A stretch of DNA of 64,000 bases, from the NCBI GenBank assembly GCA_947457195.1, contig CANGUU010000004.1:1-64000 (forward strand), written 5' to 3'. Below the pieces are notes generated by a model. That model saw nothing but the letters and a program-made list of their open reading frames with translations, made no database searches and was not told where the DNA came from. The translations under genes were made by a program, and so were the position numbers. Source of the DNA: Gammaproteobacteria bacterium. Its GTDB lineage: Bacteria; Pseudomonadota; Gammaproteobacteria; Pseudomonadales; Pseudohongiellaceae. This document shows positions 1 through 50,650 of this stretch, piece by piece (position 1 is the first letter of the stretch; the number at the start of each line of letters is the position of its first letter).

Positions 1-126
1 GCCTGCAGCGGACTCCTTATGCACTCTGCCCGGTGTGTCTGTTGGCCCTTGTCACAAGGCCTGCATTCACAACCCGTTCTTTCTACTTTTGTTGTTGTTC
101 TTGTCTGTTGTCGAAGCAGAAGTACG
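1..126 (-). ncRNA. crcZ: CrcZ-like Hfq/Crc-titrating small RNA, 5' part only
   Basis: No protein gene is visible between cbrB and the left edge. Read on the minus strand, about 12 nt after a -24/-12 promoter, the transcript contains an uninterrupted run of five AAN triplets (positions 102-87, AAGAACAACAACAAAA). This is the CA motif bound by Hfq/Crc in Pseudomonas CrcZ. A short stem CCTTG-TGA-CAAGG follows near positions 60-48. CrcZ of Pseudomonas lies at the same place, directly downstream of cbrB, and is transcribed from a CbrB/sigma-54 promoter. The RNA runs off the window, so its length, remaining CA motifs and terminator are unseen. The name rests on position, promoter and motif, not on alignment. 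Confidence 0.72.
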
Positions 127-136
127 AAGTACATGC

Positions 137-152
137 AGCAGCATTTGTGCCA
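137..152 (-). promoter_or_regulatory. Sigma-54 (-24/-12) promoter of the crcZ-like RNA
   Basis: The minus strand reads TGGCAC-N5-CTGCT, with GG and GC separated by exactly 10 bp, against the RpoN consensus TGGCAC-N5-TTGCW. Predicted transcription start is near position 126. RpoN itself is encoded at 15879-17414, and the activator CbrB is the gene just upstream. Confidence 0.8.
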
Positions 153-235
153 AGTTGGCGTGGCAATTATTTTTGTTTTTTTTCAAAGGGTTGCAGGCAA
201 GGCTGCTCAACCATTGGGCAATTGTGCAACTAATT

Positions 236-283
236 TGTTACGAAAGTGCCTGAATTGTGTTACCGCGCGAGTAACAGGTAACC
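236..283 (-). promoter_or_regulatory. Probable CbrB enhancer (upstream activating sites)
   Basis: Four copies of one half-site lie here: TGTTAC at 236-241, TGTTAC at 258-263 paired with GTAACA at 271-276 (perfect palindrome, 7-nt spacer), and GTAACC at 278-283. The block lies about 85-145 bp upstream of the sigma-54 promoter, a normal enhancer distance, and abuts the cbrB stop codon. TGTTAC/GTAACA is, from memory, the recognition half-site described for CbrB in Pseudomonas putida. Confidence 0.75.
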
Positions 284-287
284 GCCA

Positions 288-1676
288 TCAGCTGGTTTTT
301 TTCTTGCGAGGAATCTCGAAGCGCTGGCGCCGCTCCCACAGGCACTTGCGGCTGATGCCAAGTTTCTTTGCCAGTTCCGTCTCGTTCATCTGCTCCTGGT
401 GTTCGAGCACGAAGCGCTGGAAATAATCCTGCAGGGACAGGTCTTCGGCAGGATCGGACTCGATGGCCAGCGTGCTGCTGTCCGGCTTGGACACAGCCCC
501 TTCCGGCGGCTGACTGTCGATACGCACCAATTCCACGTCGAGTCCCAGCAGATCAATGGCGACTTCGTCTGTTTCCGAGAGTATCGCCGCCCGTTCTACC
601 GCGTTTTCCAGTTCCCGCACGTTGCCGGGCCACGGGTAGGTGGTGATGGCCTGGATGGCGTCCGCGCTGTACTGCATGGGGCTGCGGCCCAGACGGTGGC
701 AGGTGTTGACGAGGATGCGCTCGGCGAGTTCGAGAATGTCGTTGCCGCGCTCCCGCAGCGGCGGGATTTGCAGCGGCATGACGTTGATGCGGTAAAAAAG
801 GTCCTCGCGGAAGCGTCCTTCGCGAACGAATTGCTTGAGATCGCGGTGGGTGGCAGCGACCAGCCTTACATCGACGCGCTGCGACTGCACCGACCCCACC
901 TTGCGGATTTCGTGTTCCTGCAGCACCCGCAGCAGTCTGGCCTGGGCCTCCAGCGGCAGCTCGCCGATTTCGTCGAGGAAGAGCGTGCCATTGTCGGCCG
1001 CCTCGATCAGTCCGGTACGGGTGTTGGTGGCGCCAGTGAAAGCGCCTTTCTCATGGCCGAACAATTCCGACTCGATGAGGTTTTCGGGGATGGCAGCGCA
1101 GTTGACGGAAATAAGATTGGCGGCCCGCCGTGAACTGGCCTCATGCAGGGCTCGCGCGACCAGTTCCTTGCCGGTTCCCGATTCACCCTGGATCAGTACC
1201 GAGGAGGTGGTTTGCGCCACTTTGCGTATTCTGCGGAACAGCTCCTGCATGGCCGGACAGCTGCCCACCATACCCGGTACGGGCTCCTCGCCCGGGCGCG
1301 GGTTACGACGGCTGCGGTTTTGCTGCTTCAACCCGCTGCCGAGTACCCGTTCCAGGGTACTGAGCAACTCCTCGTGCTCGAAGGGCTTGGCGATGTAATC
1401 GACTGCGCCCACCTTCATGGAGTCGATGGCGCTGCGCAGACTGGCGTAGCTGGTCATGATCAGCACTGGCGTGGGCGTGCGTTTGATCAGCTCCGTGCCC
1501 GGCAGTCCTGGCAGGCGCAGGTCACTGATGATGGCGTCGAAACCATCAAGGTCGAACTGATCGCTGGCCTCCTGCACGCTGCCGGCTTCGGAGACGCGAT
1601 AGCCATTGCGCTCCAGCAGTCGCCGGAGCGCGGTGCGAATCACATCTTCATCTTCGACCAGGAGGACGTTGGGCAT
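288..1676 (-). CDS. cbrB: CbrB, sigma-54-dependent NtrC-family response regulator
   Basis: A 462-residue three-domain activator. The N-terminal receiver domain has the acidic pocket (VEDED near residue 8) and phospho-acceptor D52 in SDLRLPG. The central AAA+ domain carries Walker A GESGTGKE and the GAFTGA loop that contacts sigma-54, so it should activate RpoN promoters. The C-terminal Fis-type helix-turn-helix contains [16 protein letters not shown]. It follows cbrA with a 55-nt gap; the two form a two-component system which in Pseudomonas controls carbon/nitrogen balance and drives the RNA CrcZ. A matching enhancer and promoter lie immediately downstream. The dksA-gluQ-cbrX-cbrA-cbrB order supports CbrB over NtrC. 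Confidence 0.93.
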
Positions 1677-1731: not shown

Positions 1732-4677
1732 TCACTCTGTTACCAAACTGCCCGGATCATAACAGGGAAAAGTAACAATCACGCAAGTGCCTTTACCATT
1801 TGACCCACCCTCCGGAGGGCTTTCGATCTGCACGCTGCCGCCCAGATCCGTCACGAGGCGGTGTACCAGCGCCAGCCCGAGGCCCGTTCCCTGCCCGGGG
1901 TCCTTGGTGGTAAAGAAGGGATCGAACACACGCTCCAGCAGCGCGGCCGGGATGCCGCAGCCCTCATCGGTCACTTGCCAACGTACCAGCGCACCCTCCT
2001 GCCGCGACGACACCTCGATCCGCGTCCCAGCCGCACTCGCCTGCTGGGCATTGGTCAACAGGTTCAGCAGGACCTGCAGCAGGGGCTGGTAGCTGGCCTT
2101 GATGGTCAGACCCTCGCAGCAGGCATTGACCAGATCGATGTGCTGTTCGTTGTTCCCGAGCCGCAGCAGCGTGAATGCTTCTGCCGTGAGCGTATGCAGA
2201 TCGACCATCTCGGGGCGCAGAGCGGCGGTGGCAACCCCGCGGTGGGAGAAGCGCAGCAAGGCCTCGGTGATGGACGCTATGCGCCGAGTCTGACCCAGTA
2301 TCTGCTCCGCCACTTCCCGGATATCGGCCTGCGGATATTCGTCCCGCAGATTTTGTGCGAGGCAGGCGATGCCGGTGACCGGATTGCCGATTTCGTGCGC
2401 CACCCCGGCTGCCAGACGCCCGATCGAGTTCAGCCGGTCCGTATGGGCCAGTTCGTTTTCCATGAGGATGGTGTCCGTGCGGTCTTCTACCAGCAGCAAC
2501 TGCCCACTGCTGCCGCTGGTCGGTGCCCTGCCGGCACCGACTTGCAAAAACGCCTTGTGCAGGCTGAGCCAACGTGTCTTGCCGTCGAGCGTCAGGGGCT
2601 GTCGATCCTGCTTGGCGGCGGGGTCCCGCAGGAAGCGATCGAGCAGCCAACCCCACGGGGCCGGCAAGGCCGCAGGCCGCAGGCCCAGCGCCGCCGCGTC
2701 GGGGATGCCGGTGATGCGCCCCATCAGCCCGTTCCACAGCACCACGTGTCCACCCTCGTCGAGCTCACAAACCCCCAGCGGGAGATTCAACAGCGTCTGC
2801 CGGTACTGCCGCCTGAGAGAGTCGAGATCGAGCGCGATGCCGCTGAGGTTGACCGGCCAGGCATCGAGGCCCTGCTCCAGCCAACGACGTGCTTCACTGG
2901 ACGTCGTGGTCGATTTGCCCGAAAGCGGCACGGCCGTCTCCACGAGGTGATTGGCCAGCGATGGACCGAGCAGGGCCGACAGGTTCGCCTCGAGTCTGTT
3001 GCGCAGTTGCAGCAGTGCAAAGGGTCGCGATTCGTCTCGCTGGAGGCGGAGGTCCTGCAAGGCCTGCAGGACTTCCCGCTCTGCCGCTTCGTCGCCCAGC
3101 ATCGCCGCAAGACCATTCACGAAATCAGTCACCGAGCGGATCTTGAGCGGTCCCTGTACCGGCAGCTGGTTGCCTTGCGCGCAGAGTCGAGCAGCCTGCC
3201 GCTCCTCCGGCCTCGTGCTCGTGGTCAACGACACCAGCAGCAGCAACGACAGGTTGACCAACAGTGAGGCGCCACCGACTTCGGTCCAGCGCAGCGGCAC
3301 GAACAACAGAGGAGGGTCCAGGCCCAGTCGACTGGAGACATAGGGCAGCACGCCCATGAGAAACCAGACCAGTAGACCGCCCAGCAAACCCGAGATGAAG
3401 CCCTTGGCGTTGGCGGCCGGCCAGTAGAGCAGCGTGATCAGGCCGGGCAGGAACTGCAGACAGGCGATCAGGGAAATCGATCCGATATTCACCACGGCGC
3501 GCTCGCCGGCAATGGCAAGGTAGAGCAGGTAGCCCATCCCGAGTATGCCGCCGAGCAACAGCCGTCGCTGCCGCAGCAGCCAGGGGTAAAGGGCAACGCC
3601 CACCGGTGGCGGCCTTACCCGCAGCAGCACGTGGTTCATCACCATGGTCGCCAGGGCCACCGCGACCACTACACTGATACCCGTTGCTGCCGCGAGACCG
3701 CCGGTGAAATAGAGCAGGGTCACGGCTGGCGCCTGCGCCGCGAGACCAAGCTGCAGCGCAGTGAATTGCGGATTACCGGCACCGCCGAGCCGTTCGTTCG
3801 CCCACAAGATCGGCAGCACCGGCAGGCTCGCCAGCAGCAGGTAGAGCGGCACGGCCCAACTGGCGGTGCGCAGGTCACCCGGTCCGCGATTTTCGTGGAA
3901 CAGCAGGTGGAACACCTGCGGCATGGCCACGGCGGATGTGAAGAACAGCAGGATGAGAATGTTGGTTGCGTCCTCCAGGAAGGAAAGCTCGAGACGGGTG
4001 GTCTCCGGTGACTGGTCATTCAGCCACTCCTGCAAGGCGCCGAAGCCACCGAAGATTGCGTACACGGCAAAGCCGCCCATCAGCAGCAGCATCAGCAGTT
4101 TGAATGCTCCCTCAAAGGCAAGACCGGTCAGCAGAGCTGCGTTCGGCTCCCGACCGCTGACATCCGAACTGCCGAAGCGCAGGGCAAAGACCAGCACGAA
4201 CAGCAGGAATCCCAGCGTCAGCCACGCGGAGGGCAGTCCGGGCGAAAGCAGCGCGGCACTGGAGGCGAGCGTAAGGTTTTGCATCGCGAGCAGGGGAAGG
4301 ACGCAGATCAAGAGTACAACGGTGGTGAGCGTGCCGGCCCAGGCGCTGCGAAAGCGGAACGCAAACAGATCCGCCAGCGAGGCCAGCTGGAATCGCTTGG
4401 TGATACGCAGCAGGGGTTGCAGCAGGAAGGGCGAGAGCAAGAAAGCGATGGAATACCCGAGGTAGTAGGCATTGAAGCCTAAGCCGCGGCTGTCGGCTGA
4501 AATGAAGGCCGTGTAGAACGCCCAGGTACTGAGGACGACGCCGAGCGCGAGAACGTAGGTCGCGCGGTGCCGCAGCAGAGCCAGTGGCAGCGCGCCGCGT
4601 TCGGCCAGCCAGGCCACCGCAAAAAACAGGCTCAGATAAACACCGCCGGCAGTGACCAGTGTACCGGGCTCAAACAT
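1732..4677 (-). CDS. cbrA: CbrA, sensor histidine kinase with sodium/solute-symporter-type membrane domain
   Basis: 981 residues from the ATG at 4677, chosen because its N-terminus (MFEPGTLV, then a hydrophobic helix) fits and it overlaps the preceding small ORF by 8 nt; an ATG at 4719 is the alternative. The first ~500 residues form many hydrophobic helices of an SLC5/SSS-type transporter. A STAC-like linker, a PAS segment ([16 protein letters not shown]) and the kinase core follow: H761 in [11 protein letters not shown] box [12 protein letters not shown] boxes DEGCGIP and GTGLGLAL. In Pseudomonas, CbrA transports histidine and phosphorylates CbrB. The kinase residues look intact; the sensed signal cannot be read from sequence. 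Confidence 0.93.
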
Positions 4678-4831
4678 CGTCGTCGGCACCGGCGCGGTGA
4701 AAGGCGGCCACCATGCCAATCAGCATCAGCGCTCCAAGGTATGGGGCGAACCAGACCGTCGACGCCGGCAGTGCATTGAGGCTGCCTACGGTAACGAGCA
4801 GCACGATCAGGAGCAGGAGTGGGCGCGTCAT
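4670..4831 (-). CDS. cbrX: CbrX-like small membrane protein, translationally coupled to cbrA
   Basis: A 53-residue ORF starting MTRPLLLLIV, with two hydrophobic segments (about residues 3-20 and 28-44) and a short acidic end. Its stop codon overlaps the cbrA start by 8 nt (ATGTTTGA), a typical coupling arrangement. A small ORF called cbrX occupies exactly this position in Pseudomonas and is reported to be coupled to cbrA translation. Size, position and overlap agree; I did not align sequences. An in-frame upstream ATG at 4900 would overlap gluQ, so the start at 4831 is preferred. Confidence 0.7.
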   Translation of the reverse strand: MTRPLLLLIVLLVTVGSLNALPASTVWFAPYLGALMLIGMVAAFHRAGADDDV

Positions 4832-36469: not shown

Positions 36470-38368
36470 TCAGAGGAGCTTGCGCGCGTGCAGCAGTTCC
36501 ATCACGGCATCGATGCACTCCGCCACTCCAAGCCGATCGGTGGCCAGCTCAAGGTCCGCGTCGTCCGGGACTTCGAAAGGAAATGAGACGCCCGGGACCG
36601 CCGCAGACGCCTTCACGGCATCGGCGGCATAAAGACCACTCGGGTCACGTTGCCGGCAGGTGTCCAGTGGGGCCGTCAGGTGTACGAGCAAGCAGTTCTC
36701 TCGACCTATGACAGCAAGGGCGTTCGCTCTCGCTTCGGCACTGGCTGCCACGAATGCAGCGGCGCAGATGAAACCGGAGTCGTTGAGATACCTCGCGAGG
36801 TGAGCGCCTCGACGAAGATTCTCTGCGCGATCCGCGGCGCCGTGACCGAGATCCCGGCTCAGTCCCAACCGCAGTCCTTTGCCATCCAGCACTGTGGATA
36901 CACGACCCATGTCGAACAGGCGACGCTCGAGCGCATGGGCCAAGGTTGACTTGCCTGCGCCGGAGAGACCGACAAACAGCACAGTAGCCGGCTGCTGCCC
37001 ATAACGCGCCACCCGCTCTGCCGGCGTGACGTGCCCTGATCGCTCCCTGTGAAGGTGGCCCCTGCCGCCGCTGCTTTCGATCATGCCGGCACCGACGGTC
37101 ACGTTAGTAAGCCGGTCGATCACGATGAAAGCACCGGTGCTGCGATTACTACGGTAGGAATCGAAGTTCAGAGGCTGGCTGAGCACGATCTCGCAGAGGG
37201 CAATTTCGTTCAGTGCCAATGAGGGTGCTGGCAGCCTTTCCAGTGAATTCACATCTACCTTGTGATGAATGGCCGACACCTGCCCGCTGCTCACCTTGCT
37301 CGTATGCTTGAAGTCATAGAGCTTCCCGGGGAGCATGGGCTCCTCACTCATCCAGACCAAGGTGGCGGTCAGGGTATCGCGGGAGAGCGGAAGGTTGTCC
37401 CCATGCACCAGCATGTCCCCACGACTGATGTCGATCTCGTCTTCCAGCGTGAGGGTCACCGCCAGCGGCGGGAAGGCGGTCTCCAATTCCTCATCGTAGG
37501 TAACGATGGATTTGACGCGGCTTGTTTTGCCCGAAGGCAATACGGTAACGGTATCCCCCTTGCGCACCACGCCCGAGGCAACAGTGCCGCAGTAACCGCG
37601 GAAATTGAGGTTCGGGCGGTTGACGTACTGCACCGGAAAGCGAAAGTCCTCGAAGTTCTTGTCCGCGGCGATTTTGACGTTTTCCAGCATATGCATGAGG
37701 GTAGGCCCGGAGTACCAGGGCATCTGGGTACTGGCATTCACCACGTTGTCGCCGTTGAGCGCCGAAATCGGAATGAAGGTCAGGTCGCCGGTTTCCAGGT
37801 CTGCCGTGAACGCCAGATAGTCCATCTTGATGCGCTCAAAAACCGCCTGGTCGTGGCCCATGAGATCCATCTTGTTGATGGCAACGATGAGGTGGCGTAT
37901 GCCCAGTAATGACGCGATGAACGTATGGCGCCGTGTCTGGGTCATCACCCCGTACCTCGCATCGATGAGGATGATGGCCAATTCACAATTGGAAGCGCCG
38001 GTCGCCATGTTGCGCGTGTACTGCTCATGGCCCGGCGTATCGGCGATGATGAACTTGCGTTTCGCGGTCGAGAAATAGCGGTAGGCAACATCGATGGTGA
38101 TACCTTGCTCCCGCTCTGCCTGTAAACCGTCGGTCAGCAGGGCGAGATCCACCTTGTCGCCCGTAGTGCCAGACTTGACGCTGTCTGACTTTATGGCGGA
38201 AAGCTGGTCCTCGTAGATCATCTTGGTGTCGTAAAGCAGCCTGCCGATCAGAGTGCTCTTGCCGTCATCCACGCTTCCGCAGGTCAATAGTCGCAGAAGT
38301 TCCTTGCGCTCATGCTGCGCGAGGTACGCGTTGATGTCGGTGCTGATGAGATCGGACTGATGCGACAT
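36470..38368 (-). CDS. cysNC: CysNC: sulfate adenylyltransferase large subunit fused to APS kinase
   Basis: 632 residues. The N-terminal GTPase (residues ~1-450) has G1 [15 protein letters not shown]3 [17 protein letters not shown] and G4 NKMDL; with CysD it makes adenosine 5'-phosphosulfate. The C-terminal ~185 residues are an APS-kinase domain with P-loop GLSGAGKST that makes PAPS. In that domain the usual DGDN and FISPF motifs appear as DGKG and FVAAS; Pseudomonas CysNC, as I recall, also departs from the E. coli form there. The start follows cysD by 77 bp. Confidence 0.94.
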
Positions 38369-38445
38369 TGTGATTCCTGTCTTGCGGCGCCGTGCGCCAG
38401 AGTATGACGAAAAGAAACCTTGCAGCGCCGGGCGCCAGAAAGTGC

Positions 38446-39354
38446 CTAAAAGTAACCTTCGCGCTTCTTCTGCTCCATCGAGCCGGCCTGGTCGCTGTCG
38501 ATGAGGCGACCTTGTCGCTCCGAGGTGGTCGCCAGCAGCATTTCCTGAATGATTTCTGGCAGCGTAGTGGCCTGCGACTCGATGGCGCCGGTGAGGGGGT
38601 AGCACCCTAGGGTACGGAAACGGACCATTTGGTTGCGCAGATTCTTGCGAAACTCCGGCGGAACACGCTCGTCGTTCAGCATGATGGTCACCCCCTCGTA
38701 GTCGATGACCGGCCGTTCCTTGGCAAAATACAGGGCGGGGATCTCTATGTTGTTGAGATGGATGTATTGCCACACATCCAATTCCGTCCAGTTCGACAGG
38801 GGGAATACGCGAATGCTTTCACCTTTGTTGATCTTGCCGTTGTACAGGCTCCAGAGTTCCGGTCGCTGGTTTTTCGGGTCCCACGTATGGTTCTTGTCGC
38901 GAAAGGAGAACACGCGTTCCTTGGCACGGGATTTTTCTTCGTCACGACGGGCGCCTCCAAATGCGGCATCGAACTGGTACTTGTTCAAGGCCTGCTTCAG
39001 CGCCTGGGTTTTCATGATGTCCGTGTGCTTCGCACTACCATAACTGAACGGATTCACACCGGCTTTGACGCCTTCCTCGTTGATATGCACGATCAGATCG
39101 AAGCCATGCTTGCGGGCAAGGTTGTCCCGGAATTCGATCATCTCCCGGAACTTCCACGTCGTGTCCACGTGGAGCAGCGGGAAGGGTAGCCGACCGGGGT
39201 AGAACGCCCTGAGCGCGAGGCTCAGCATGACAGCCGAGTCCTTGCCGATCGAATACAGCATGACAGGACGCTCGAACTCGGCGGCAACCTCCCGAATGAT
39301 GTGGATACTTTCGGCTTCGAGCTGTCTCAGGTGTGTCAGTTGATGGTTTGTCAT
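38446..39354 (-). CDS. cysD: Sulfate adenylyltransferase small subunit
   Basis: 302 residues of the PAPS-reductase/ATP-pyrophosphatase fold: [12 protein letters not shown] (PP-loop) near 33, [27 protein letters not shown], and the C-terminal [15 protein letters not shown] and KKREGYF typical of CysD. It condenses ATP and sulfate with energy from CysN GTP hydrolysis. It leads the cysD-cysNC operon. Confidence 0.97.
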
Positions 39355-41228: not shown

Positions 41229-41831
41229 GTGAATGACGGCACTGCAAACAAGAGCCGCAGACGCTTTTTGATCGGCGCCACGACAGCAGTGAGTGCCGTC
41301 GGGGGTGTTGGTGCGGCGGTACCTTTCGTCGGTTCGTGGAATCCCAGTGCCAAAGCCTTGGCGGCCGGGGCGCCTATCACAATCGACATCAGCCGTCTGG
41401 AGCCGGGCGAGTTGTTGGGTCCTATGCCAGCCTGGCGCGGTCAGCCCGTGTTCGTCATGCGGCGCGACGAAACCACGCTGTCGAACCTGAAGGAACACAC
41501 GGCTCACTTGGCAGATCCGGCGTCGGAAAAACCCGACCAGCAGCCAGACTACGCACAGAACGAGTTTCGCTCCAGAAAGCCGGAATTGATGGTGCTGGTG
41601 GGTATATGCACGCATCTCGGCTGCTCCCCGCAGTTGTTTGCCGAAGTTCAGCCACAGGATTTCGATGCGGATTGGCGCGGCGGCTTTTTCTGCCCCTGCC
41701 ACGGCTCCAAGTTCGACCTCGCGGGGCGCGTCTACTCCGGGGTACCTGCGCCGGACAACCTGCGGGTACCGCCTCACTACTTCGTAAATGACAACGTCAT
41801 CGTCATTGGTCTTGACTCGGAGAATTCCTGA
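41229..41831 (+). CDS. petA: Ubiquinol-cytochrome c reductase, Rieske iron-sulfur subunit
   Basis: 200 residues with a GTG start and AGGAG ribosome-binding site. The N-terminal SRRRFLIG and following hydrophobic helix form an uncleaved Tat-type anchor. The cluster ligands are C127-x-H129 in CTHLGC and C155-x2-H158 in CPCHGS, with the extra cysteines of the disulfide. It carries electrons from ubiquinol to cytochrome c1 in the bc1 complex. Its stop overlaps the next gene by one base. Confidence 0.97.
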   Translation: MNDGTANKSRRRFLIGATTAVSAVGGVGAAVPFVGSWNPSAKALAAGAPITIDISRLEPGELLGPMPAWRGQPVFVMRRDETTLSNLKEHTAHLADPASEKPDQQPDYAQNEFRSRKPELMVLVGICTHLGCSPQLFAEVQPQDFDADWRGGFFCPCHGSKFDLAGRVYSGVPAPDNLRVPPHYFVNDNVIVIGLDSENS

Positions 41832-43837
41832 TGGCCGGCAGTGATCACAACAATGCGAAACCGCAGTTGACCGGCCTGCTGGGCTGGATCAATGAACGTC
41901 TGCCGATCGTGCAGGCGTATGAAAAGCATATGAGCCAGTACTACGCCCCGAAGAATTTCAACATCTGGTACGTATTCGGTGTGCTTTCGATGGTCGTGCT
42001 GGTGAATCAGTTGCTGACGGGCATCTGGTTGACGATGAACTTTAATACCAGCGCCGAAGGCGCCTTTGCGTCGGTCGAGTACATCATGCGGGACGTCGAC
42101 TATGGCTGGATCCTGCGTTACATGCACTCGACGGGTGCCTCCGCCTTCTTCGTGGTGGTCTACCTCCACATGTTCCGCGGGCTCATGTACGGCTCCTACA
42201 AAAAGCCGCGGGAACTGATCTGGATCCTCGGAATGACCATTTACCTGGTGCTGATGGCCGAGGGTTTCATGGGCTATGTATTGCCTTGGGGGCAAATGTC
42301 CTACTGGGGTGCCAATGTGATCGTCGGCTTGTTCGGTGCGATACCGGTGATCGGTCCGGATCTGATGACGTGGATCCAGGGGGACTTCCTCATTTCGGGC
42401 GCTACCCTTAACCGCTTTTTCGCCCTCCATGTGGTGGCTCTGCCGCTGGCGTTGGTGGGTCTGGTGTTCCTGCACATACTCGCCTTGCACGAAGTCGGGT
42501 CCAATAATCCAGACGGTGTGGAGATCAAGAAGAACAAGGATCCGGTCACCGGTTTGCCTTTGGATGGTATTCGCTTCCACCCGTACTACACCGTGCATGA
42601 CCTGGTCGCCATCATCATCTTTCTGGCGGTATTCTCGTTCGTGATCTTTTTCACCCCTGAAGGCGGTGGCTACTTCCTCGAACATGCCAACTTCGAGGAA
42701 GCGAATAATCTCAAGACGCCCGAACACATCGCGCCGGTCTGGTACTTCACACCGTTCTACTCGATGTTGCGGGCTTGCACGTACCCGCTGTTCGGTATCG
42801 ATGCCAAGGTGTGGGGGCTTGTGACTATGGCGTCCGCCATCGCCATTCTGTTCGTGTTGCCGTGGCTCGATCGCAGCCCCGTGAAGTCCATGCGCTACAA
42901 GGGCTGGTATAGCCGCATCGGTCTGCTGCTCTTCGTTGTCAGCTTCATCATTCTTGGCGTGTTGGGCACCAAGATTGCGACCGAGGCGCGTACCACGCTG
43001 GCGCAGATCTGCACTCTGTACTACTTCGCATTCTTCCTCAGCATGCCGTGGTACACGAGAAAGGAGCAGACTGGTACTCCACCGGCGCGACTGACGGGCC
43101 GCTTCATCTCCATTCCACAGTTGCTGCTAGCCCTAGTCCTTATCGCTGGTCTGACGATCCTGCCGTTGATGGCGGTCGGTGCCGAATCGGAGGCTACGCT
43201 TCCTCACTATGAGTCCAATCTGGAAGACAAGGCATCCCTACAGTCCGGAGCCACCACTTTCGTCAATTACTGCATGGGCTGCCATGGCGCCCGGTTCTCG
43301 CGTTACCAGCGCGTTGCCAGTGATCTGGGGATACCGGAGGAACTGGCCGAAGAGTTTTTCCTCTTCGATTCCGACGCGGCAATCGGCGATCTCATGGAAA
43401 GCTCCATGCCGGAAGAGCAGGCCAAGAACTGGTTCGGCGTAGCGCCGCCCGATCTCACGCTGGTGGCCCGGGTTCGGGGCTCCGACTGGCTCTATGGGTA
43501 TCTGAAGGGTTTTTACCAGGATCCCTCCAGACCATTTGGTGTCAACAATGTCGTGTTCCGCAATGTCGGCATGCCTCATGTGCTGGGAAATCTGCAGGGC
43601 GAGCAGCGCTGCGCAGACGAGGCCTGTACGGCGCTTGCCCCTGTGGAAGGCACCGGTACGCTGAGTGCGGAGCAGTTCGATAAGGTCGTCTACGACCTAG
43701 TGAACTTTCTGACCTACCTTGGGGAGCCCGCCGCCCTCCATCGTGAGCGGATCGGCATCTATGTGCTGTTTTTCCTCGCGTTCCTGTTTGTATTCGCCTA
43801 CATGCTGAATCGCGAATACTGGAAAGACGTTCATTAA
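41831..43837 (+). CDS. petBC: Fused cytochrome b and cytochrome c1 of the bc1 complex
   Basis: One uninterrupted 668-residue frame. Residues ~1-430 are cytochrome b: eight-odd membrane helices, haem His pairs (RYMHSTGAS/VVYLHMFRG and RFFALHVVALP/VFLHILAL), and the quinol-site PEW variant PEHIAPVWYFTPFY. Residues ~435-455 form a hydrophobic stretch ending AVGAES that looks like an internal signal peptide. Then comes cytochrome c1 with haem motif CMGCH at 481-485 and a C-terminal membrane anchor. Pseudomonas has separate petB and petC. A fused precursor cut into two is known for Bradyrhizobium FbcH, and the same processing is inferred here. Confidence 0.94.
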   Translation: MAGSDHNNAKPQLTGLLGWINERLPIVQAYEKHMSQYYAPKNFNIWYVFGVLSMVVLVNQLLTGIWLTMNFNTSAEGAFASVEYIMRDVDYGWILRYMHSTGASAFFVVVYLHMFRGLMYGSYKKPRELIWILGMTIYLVLMAEGFMGYVLPWGQMSYWGANVIVGLFGAIPVIGPDLMTWIQGDFLISGATLNRFFALHVVALPLALVGLVFLHILALHEVGSNNPDGVEIKKNKDPVTGLPLDGIRFHPYYTVHDLVAIIIFLAVFSFVIFFTPEGGGYFLEHANFEEANNLKTPEHIAPVWYFTPFYSMLRACTYPLFGIDAKVWGLVTMASAIAILFVLPWLDRSPVKSMRYKGWYSRIGLLLFVVSFIILGVLGTKIATEARTTLAQICTLYYFAFFLSMPWYTRKEQTGTPPARLTGRFISIPQLLLALVLIAGLTILPLMAVGAESEATLPHYESNLEDKASLQSGATTFVNYCMGCHGARFSRYQRVASDLGIPEELAEEFFLFDSDAAIGDLMESSMPEEQAKNWFGVAPPDLTLVARVRGSDWLYGYLKGFYQDPSRPFGVNNVVFRNVGMPHVLGNLQGEQRCADEACTALAPVEGTGTLSAEQFDKVVYDLVNFLTYLGEPAALHRERIGIYVLFFLAFLFVFAYMLNREYWKDVH

Positions 43838-50060: not shown

Positions 50061-50426
50061 GGAGTCAGCCAGACAATCGCTGTGCAGCATTTGCATGCTG
50101 CAGGGAGGAAAGTCCGGGCTCCACAGAGCAAAGTGCCAGGTAACGCCTGGGGGGCGTGAGCCCACGGAAAGTGCAACAGAAAGATACCGCCCGGTGTTGT
50201 GTCGCTTGCGATGCGACGCTGTGGTAAGGGTGAAATGGTGCGGTAAGAGCGCACCGCGTGCGTGGTAACACGGCACGGCTAGGCAAACCCCACTTGGAGC
50301 AAGGCCAAATAGGAATCCACTCGGTGTGGCTCGCATCGGATTCGGGTAGGCTGCTTGAGGTGGCTGGCAACAGCCATCCCAGATGAATGATTGTCCTCGA
50401 CAGAACCCGGCTTATCGGCTGACTCC
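50061..50426 (+). ncRNA. rnpB: RNase P RNA, bacterial class A
   Basis: 366 nt. Ends pair perfectly: GGAGTCAGCC (50061-50070) with GGCTGACTCC (50417-50426), forming helix P1. The conserved P3-P4 signature GAGGAAAGTCCGGGCTCC is at 50105-50122, ACAGAAA lies near 50177, and the 3' P4 strand with ACAGAACCCGGCTTA is at 50400-50414. It processes tRNA 5' ends. Placement between rsmI and mraZ is the usual one. Confidence 0.97.
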
Positions 50427-50650
50427 CCCTTTTCCCCTTGGCGTACGCCGCCTGCCCCTCGCGTCTATGCTCAGCTCCGGCGAAAAAGTGAGCGCCCCAA
50501 CCCTGCTGCTTTCTGCCACCAATCTTGAGGACTTACTTTAAGTTCTCCCCCTATTGGTTTGTATTAGTTTGAAAATATTTTTCTTGGGAATCGTGCTGCT
50601 GCGGGAGCGGTCGACACAAGAATTTTCCAATAAAAACAATGAAATAGAGC

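Follow-up and report, generated by a model that had tools for sequence, protein, structure and literature searches.

The window, that is, the whole stretch of 64,000 nucleotides analysed here, begins at base 1 of contig C4 in an assembly of 139 contigs and opens with a regulatory locus read on the minus strand. The sensor kinase gene cbrA (1732..4719; 995 aa from the listed TTG start, with HisKA and HATPase_c domains) is followed by cbrB (288..1676), which encodes a sigma-54 response regulator of 462 aa with Response_reg and Sigma54_activat domains. CbrA aligns over residues 28-987 at 44% with the copy adjoining CbrB in Pseudomonas fildesensis (L097), and no SLC5/SSF Pfam match was found in it at 1e-3. 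The elements within positions 1-283 all lie downstream of cbrB on the minus strand. Named by the F/R scheme laid out in passages of PMC6296734, the predicted CbrB subsites comprise an imperfect F-type GGTTAC (278..283), a perfect F-type TGTTAC (271..276) and two R-type GTAACA copies (258..263 and 236..241), the second 16 nt beyond the first. Past an A-rich stretch comes the -24/-12 sigma-54 promoter TGGCACAAATGCTGC (138..152) with a GG-N10-GC arrangement. The inner F and R subsites are 7 nt apart and the outer GGTTAC stands 14 nt before the first GTAACA; in P. putida, according to the same passages, CbrB acts through an F and two R subsites spaced 12-16 nt and crcZ is transcribed by sigma-54 polymerase. 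The perfect pair at 7 nt and the promoter with 10-bp GG-GC spacing had both been pointed out in a preliminary description of this DNA and are present as described.

A transcript starting near position 126, as placed from the -12 element, would occupy 1..126 on the minus strand and continue on another contig, C22. The end of C22 matches window positions 1-343 over 343 bases with 3 mismatches and in the same orientation, so C22 is probably the left neighbour of the window. The last stretch of C22 (L003) runs from the end of cbrB through the entire intergenic region and pcnB, and the gene can thus be read on one contig, between cbrB and pcnB; its join to the window rests on the 343-base overlap. 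The predicted RNA is about 316 nt long in all. It carries a first A-rich cluster, AAGAACAACAACAAAA (window 88..102, minus strand; AAG AAC AAC AAC AAA, overlapping copies of AANAANAA), then a structured middle, a second cluster AAGAAGAACAA and a third AATAAGAAA (L003 7363-7373 and 7322-7329, outside the window), and it ends at the hairpin GACCCGGGGCCCAGGCCCCGGGTT with its T-run (L003 7288-7311, outside the window; dG -21.9), the RNA reaching L003 7281. Together the three clusters hold six overlapping AANAANAA matches. The pcnB gene (L003 5787-7151, outside the window; TIGR01942) starts about 130 nt past this intrinsic terminator on the same strand. Reading leftwards from position 1, which the preliminary description had proposed as a check, thus brought out two further A-rich clusters and a terminator ahead of pcnB. 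The five consecutive AAN triplets that it had set at the transcript start do exist, at 88-102, but the first of them lies about 24 nt into the predicted RNA. Positions 167-183, also A-rich, sit upstream of the promoter and outside the RNA.

A protein-coding gene across the region is unlikely. A sense frame of 112 aa runs along the RNA in this genome, but its opening lies ahead of the predicted transcript start, and antisense frames in the same copy are longer. In the seven other readable regions of the genus the longest sense frames have 39-107 aa and lie at other places; similarity to the 112-aa frame occurs only in short pieces, the best being 38 residues in L015 (E 3e-5). The RNA gives a folding z score of -2.44, with 2 of 100 shuffles equally good. 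Against the Rfam CrcZ model (RF01675) it scores 14.6 and 9.7 bits where the cut-off is 95, a threshold passed in just one of 37 genomes. The expectation that annotation would miss so short an RNA agrees with scores below that cut-off.

Elsewhere in the window, a single 668-aa frame (41831-43837, plus strand; b at residues 35-399, c1 at 466-666) fuses cytochrome b with cytochrome c1, and behind it lie a GST-fold gene, presumably sspA by its position, and then an SspB gene. A 767-aa frame on the minus strand (36470-38773) encodes a protein with both an EF-Tu-like GTPase and an APS kinase domain, an arrangement like that of CysNC. A class A RNase P RNA (344 bits) is found at 50061-50430 on the plus strand. 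The host had been judged not to be a Pseudomonas, and this agrees both with the fused cytochrome b-c1 and with the family grouping, in which the genome falls in f1 and not in f21. The latter was equated with Pseudomonadaceae on the strength of a Crc 86-92% identical to that of P. aeruginosa.

The motif content of the locus exceeds what base composition would give. The cbrB-pcnB region of L003 holds 10 AANAANAA motifs, six of them within the predicted RNA, against a mean of 0.78 and a maximum of 3 in 50 dinucleotide shuffles. Over 133 readable regions, a count that includes one Gilvimarinus locus twice (L096 and L209), 1664 motifs fall on the sense strand, 114 on the antisense strand and 186.5 in shuffled sequence. 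The promoter pattern TGGCAY-N6-TGC occurs in 107 of 125 cbrB-downstream regions of at least 200 nt, where shuffles lead one to expect 0.68 and the complementary strand yields 0. The shuffles and the strand asymmetry rule against chance A-richness as an explanation. Predicted CbrB sites mostly lie upstream of the promoter (243 over 22,196 b, whereas the 55,775 b downstream of it hold 36), and the first motif follows the -12 element at a median distance of 14 nt over the 107 promoters.

The genus of the host (g1) is represented by 11 genomes, in which eight regions are readable; two further loci run off their contigs and one was not fetched. Promoter, motif clusters and TGTTAC are kept in all eight readable regions, each of which exceeds its own shuffle maximum, and GTTAC stands at the place of the outer GGTTAC in 8/8 of the aligned regions. 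Mean column identity of the aligned RNA is only 53%. At the terminator 95% of the alignment cells are paired and 5 of the 11 pairs have changed on both sides; the covariation score of the terminator together with an invariant four-pair stem was reached by 0 of 500 shuffles, a control that leaves relatedness in place and takes its structure from the same alignment. The number of further pair types did not rise above the shuffles (366/500). In this genus the first motif stands 19-37 nt past the -12 element (overall median 14), and regions carry 3-11 motifs; nine loci of g4, in the same family, have 17-24. With 10 motifs, the region described here is also poorer than those of g6 relatives that have no strong Crc-like match (13-14, five loci) and than those of family f28. 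The observation of a CrcZ-type gene at window 1-283 is real as judged from the DNA, and a complete assembly of CbrA, CbrB, sigma-54 promoter and CrcZ-type gene is supported.

CbrB matches reached E<=1e-125 in 232 of the 293 order genomes and E<=1e-110 in 97 of the 99 family genomes; the weakest of them, in both sets, may be paralogues. CbrA pieces adjoin CbrB in 56 of 59 loci tested, the exceptions being L021, L022 and L035. For the order, 60 loci from 26 families outside f1 were picked for diversity from the best-scoring CbrB matches listed, leaving aside 13 families with weaker matches; L236, the sole f27 locus, ends before the stop codon, so that 59 readable loci in 25 families remained. 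The promoter is present in 52 of the 59, and promoter plus at least three motifs in 51, representing 22 of the 25 families. The layout of TGGCAY-N6-TGC and AANAANAA clusters behind cbrB is found in families including Pseudomonadaceae and Cellvibrionaceae. The supposition that the switch is an isolated oddity outside Pseudomonas does not hold, as the CrcZ-type gene is spread over the order.

The families that fall short do so in different ways: f7 has 13 motifs and no matching promoter, three loci of f8 lack a unit behind cbrB, and f9 has the promoter with two motifs. Single loci are missed in f2 (L217, at a contig end), f28 (L223, no motifs) and f38 (L257, 23 motifs and no matching promoter). 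Family f16 includes Gilvimarinus, the motif positions of L209 (G151) being those of L096. Within f1 itself promoter plus at least three motifs occur in 52 of 69 readable loci (70 with the present one included; L018 was unreadable). The misses include g2 (five loci with 0-4 motifs, none with a matching promoter), one subgroup of g5, one locus truncated at the end of its contig, and some in which motifs occur but the promoter pattern does not; g3 has 6-9 motifs in four loci. The g5 loci L073, L074, L076, L078, L079 and L081 leave a gap of only 26-135 nt between cbrB and pcnB, with no motifs and a more diverged CbrB. In one f8 genome, G030, which has no unit behind cbrB, a promoter with 13 motifs (L005) lies on a contig other than that of cbrB. 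In L215, L219, L234, L249 and L255 (families f45, f29, f38 and f6) two sigma-54 promoters stand in tandem between cbrB and pcnB with A-rich clusters after each, and these five of the 59 order loci apparently contain duplicated CrcZ genes. A separate scan of contigs with general AAA+ motifs gave 80 loci, among which only L095-L099 are CbrB-like by identity (62-64%), the rest reaching 47% or less; L095, from a Pseudomonadaceae MAG, and L099 show 0 and 1 motif in the stretch read.

The partner protein of the Pseudomonas system was searched for in the same genomes. With P. aeruginosa Crc as query, the host genome returns only an ExoIII (E 3e-33, 29%) and no Crc, and only two Exo_endo_phos proteins were found in it, the ExoIII, whose residues are intact, and a nuclease-like protein of 474 aa. 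For the genus as a whole, too, the count comes to an ExoIII alone. Neither this genome nor the 10 others of the genus that were searched contains a detectable Crc, and among the 99 family genomes no match better than 1e-36 occurs in g1 (11 genomes), g2 (6) or g3 (5). A Crc hidden by an assembly gap is unlikely, since 0 of the 11 genomes of the genus give a match at E<=1e-48 and six of them are at least 99% complete. The remainder of the family has strong matches, 67 in 66 genomes, all of g4-g7 (1e-55 to 1e-84). Thirty of these 67, from 29 of the 66 genomes, were read and the remaining 37 were not fetched; all 30 have the intact catalytic set EDNDDH. Equating every strong match with Crc was therefore rejected, the 30 read in f1 being intact exonucleases. 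In a tree of 76 rows, 24 degenerate proteins from 20 families, including Pseudomonadaceae, form one clade (support 100/99), and the 52 intact rows, with all 30 from f1, fall outside it. The tree omits L326 (the second Gilvimarinus match) and L315 (G286), for which there was no tblastn piece, and L281 sits on a long branch. On these sequences Crc is a clade of exonucleases that have lost their catalytic activity. Among the Crc-like loci L263-L323, several families possess a degenerate Crc alongside an intact exonuclease from its wider family. The data suggest an origin of Crc in a duplication with loss of catalysis.

Family f28 offers a second case. Its genome G249 has no Crc match at 1e-3, G286 only one at 2e-11, and G125 one at E<=1e-48 that is intact; their CrcZ regions hold 26, 28 and 33 motifs, respectively. 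In the CbrB tree f1 and f28 stand apart, and as that tree is unrooted it does not distinguish loss of Crc from its recruitment after the split. The preliminary description had the same Hfq/Crc switch at work here, a reading that is not supported: Crc was found neither in this genome nor in the 10 others of the genus searched.

The host hfq gene is intact, and over residues 1-73 the protein closely resembles P. aeruginosa Hfq, Y25 included; the Y25D variant of the latter fails to bind CrcZ, according to the part of PMC4063720 available. In a 17% sample of the host genome the A-rich motif precedes an ORF ATG in 2 of 108 cases against 41 of 1056 controls and is not enriched; the same test on a Pseudomonadaceae genome gave 13/100 against 62/948, so that even the positive control is raised only about twofold. 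With pyrimidines at N the counts are 1/23 against 7/125 in the host and 4/22 against 12/140 in G204. A start-codon profile found 7 of 383 genes in the host (control mean 5, range 2-7) and 5 of 279 in G204 (control mean 2.1, range 0-7). Whole-genome counts over 18 genomes of AACAACAA paired with ATG and, as comparison, with GTA came to 12/10 in the host, 142/87 in four genomes of its genus together, 116/42 in three Pseudomonadaceae, 59/32 and 76/27 in f28, and 37/40 in Gilvimarinus. As Gilvimarinus has both CrcZ and Crc and shows no excess, this test does not discriminate.

The reading that we consider probable is that the locus produces a CbrAB-controlled CrcZ-type RNA serving as a decoy for Hfq without Crc. 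CbrA would activate CbrB under poor carbon supply, and CbrB bound to the TGTTAC/GTAACA subsites would drive sigma-54 RNA polymerase at the -24/-12 promoter. The product would be a terminated RNA of about 316 nt whose three AAN clusters would bind the distal face of Hfq and withhold it from other RNAs. The decoy would act on Hfq alone because no Crc was found in the genome or genus. In P. aeruginosa, as reported in the available part of PMC4063720, CrcZ binds the distal face of Hfq, Hfq being the main repressor and Crc ancillary. Transcription, control by CbrB, binding to Hfq and an effect on carbon use are all inferred here from the DNA. The anatomy, complete and in the expected order from cbrA and cbrB through sites, promoter, A-rich RNA and terminator to pcnB, argues for a decoy, as does its conservation (8/8 regions of the genus; 51/59 loci from 25 other families). 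So do the placement of motifs after the -12 element and of CbrB sites upstream, the compensatory terminator changes, Y25 of Hfq and the 26 and 28 motifs of the f28 genomes with no Crc-clade match. Counted against it are the Rfam score, the missing Crc, the few or missing motifs in g2 and L223 and the 112-aa frame along the RNA. Arguing against full function are a motif count below that of relatives, the greater distance to the first motif and start codons with no excess of A-rich motifs.

An alternative is an RNA in decay, still made with little or no regulatory effect after selection on it had weakened without Crc in g1-g3. Motifs are indeed fewer in g1 and g3 than in g4, g2 has at most four and no matching promoter, and the sampled host genes show no target enrichment. 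Yet all readable regions of the genus keep the promoter and TGTTAC and exceed their shuffle maxima, the terminator has changed in a compensatory manner, and two f28 genomes without a Crc-clade match are rich in motifs; decay is rather unlikely. That the RNA works with an unrelated or very diverged substitute for Crc is quite improbable: Crc strengthens repression by Hfq in Pseudomonas, according to the accessible portions of PMC5815094 and PMC8266614, so a partner might be needed, but only two Exo_endo_phos proteins were found in the genome, the intact ExoIII and the 474-aa nuclease-like one. The proximity and common strand of pcnB might make the region a CbrB-controlled pcnB leader with no separate RNA. 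A strong terminator conserved through compensatory changes ahead of pcnB and the G030 unit lying away from cbrB both speak against such a leader, which is highly improbable.

On a wider scale, it is a tentative proposal, a little short of an even chance, that CbrAB-CrcZ-Hfq is ancestral to Pseudomonadales sensu lato, that Hfq alone operates in at least two lineages (f1 and f28), and that Crc was lost or recruited after the split. If this were true, CrcZ, as the half that came first, would be more central to the system than Crc. Lineages with CrcZ and without Crc are a natural experiment on the contribution that Crc makes beside Hfq, and through them one can test whether a decoy for Hfq is enough to run carbon catabolite control.

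The available text of a 2022 review (PMC8871633) calls CbrAB and its synteny unique to Pseudomonadaceae and names Pseudomonas and Azotobacter as the only hosts, and that of PMC6296734 calls CbrAB exclusive of Pseudomonads; as far as genes and sites go, the present data disagree with both on distribution. The accessible portion of PMC8266614 yielded no term on distribution. Among the papers listed by a search of the open-access journal literature, none dealt with CrcZ beyond Pseudomonadaceae; in the texts available, none linked CrcZ with Cellvibrio or Marinobacter, and Halomonas had incidental mentions in two.

CrcY and CrcX of Pseudomonas are separate loci. They are likewise CbrB- and sigma-54-dependent RNAs with CA motifs, and five of the 59 order loci have tandem units. 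The host ExoIII and P. aeruginosa Crc (PDB 4jg3) are both members of the wider exonuclease III family, but this ExoIII, the nearest protein in the genome, is intact and 29% identical to Crc. CrcZ of P. aeruginosa measures 407 nt and has six A-rich stretches, as given in the part of PMC4063720 available, compared with about 316 nt and three clusters here, and perfect F-R spacing in the five Pseudomonadaceae loci shown is 14-16 nt compared with 7 nt. Relative to CrcZ of Pseudomonas and Azotobacter (RF01675), the gene differs in its Rfam score, far below the cut-off, and in that no Crc was found in its genome. It shares with them its place directly behind cbrB, the CbrB subsites, the sigma-54 promoter, the A-rich motifs, the terminator and pcnB as the next gene, which is also found behind all four f21 loci.
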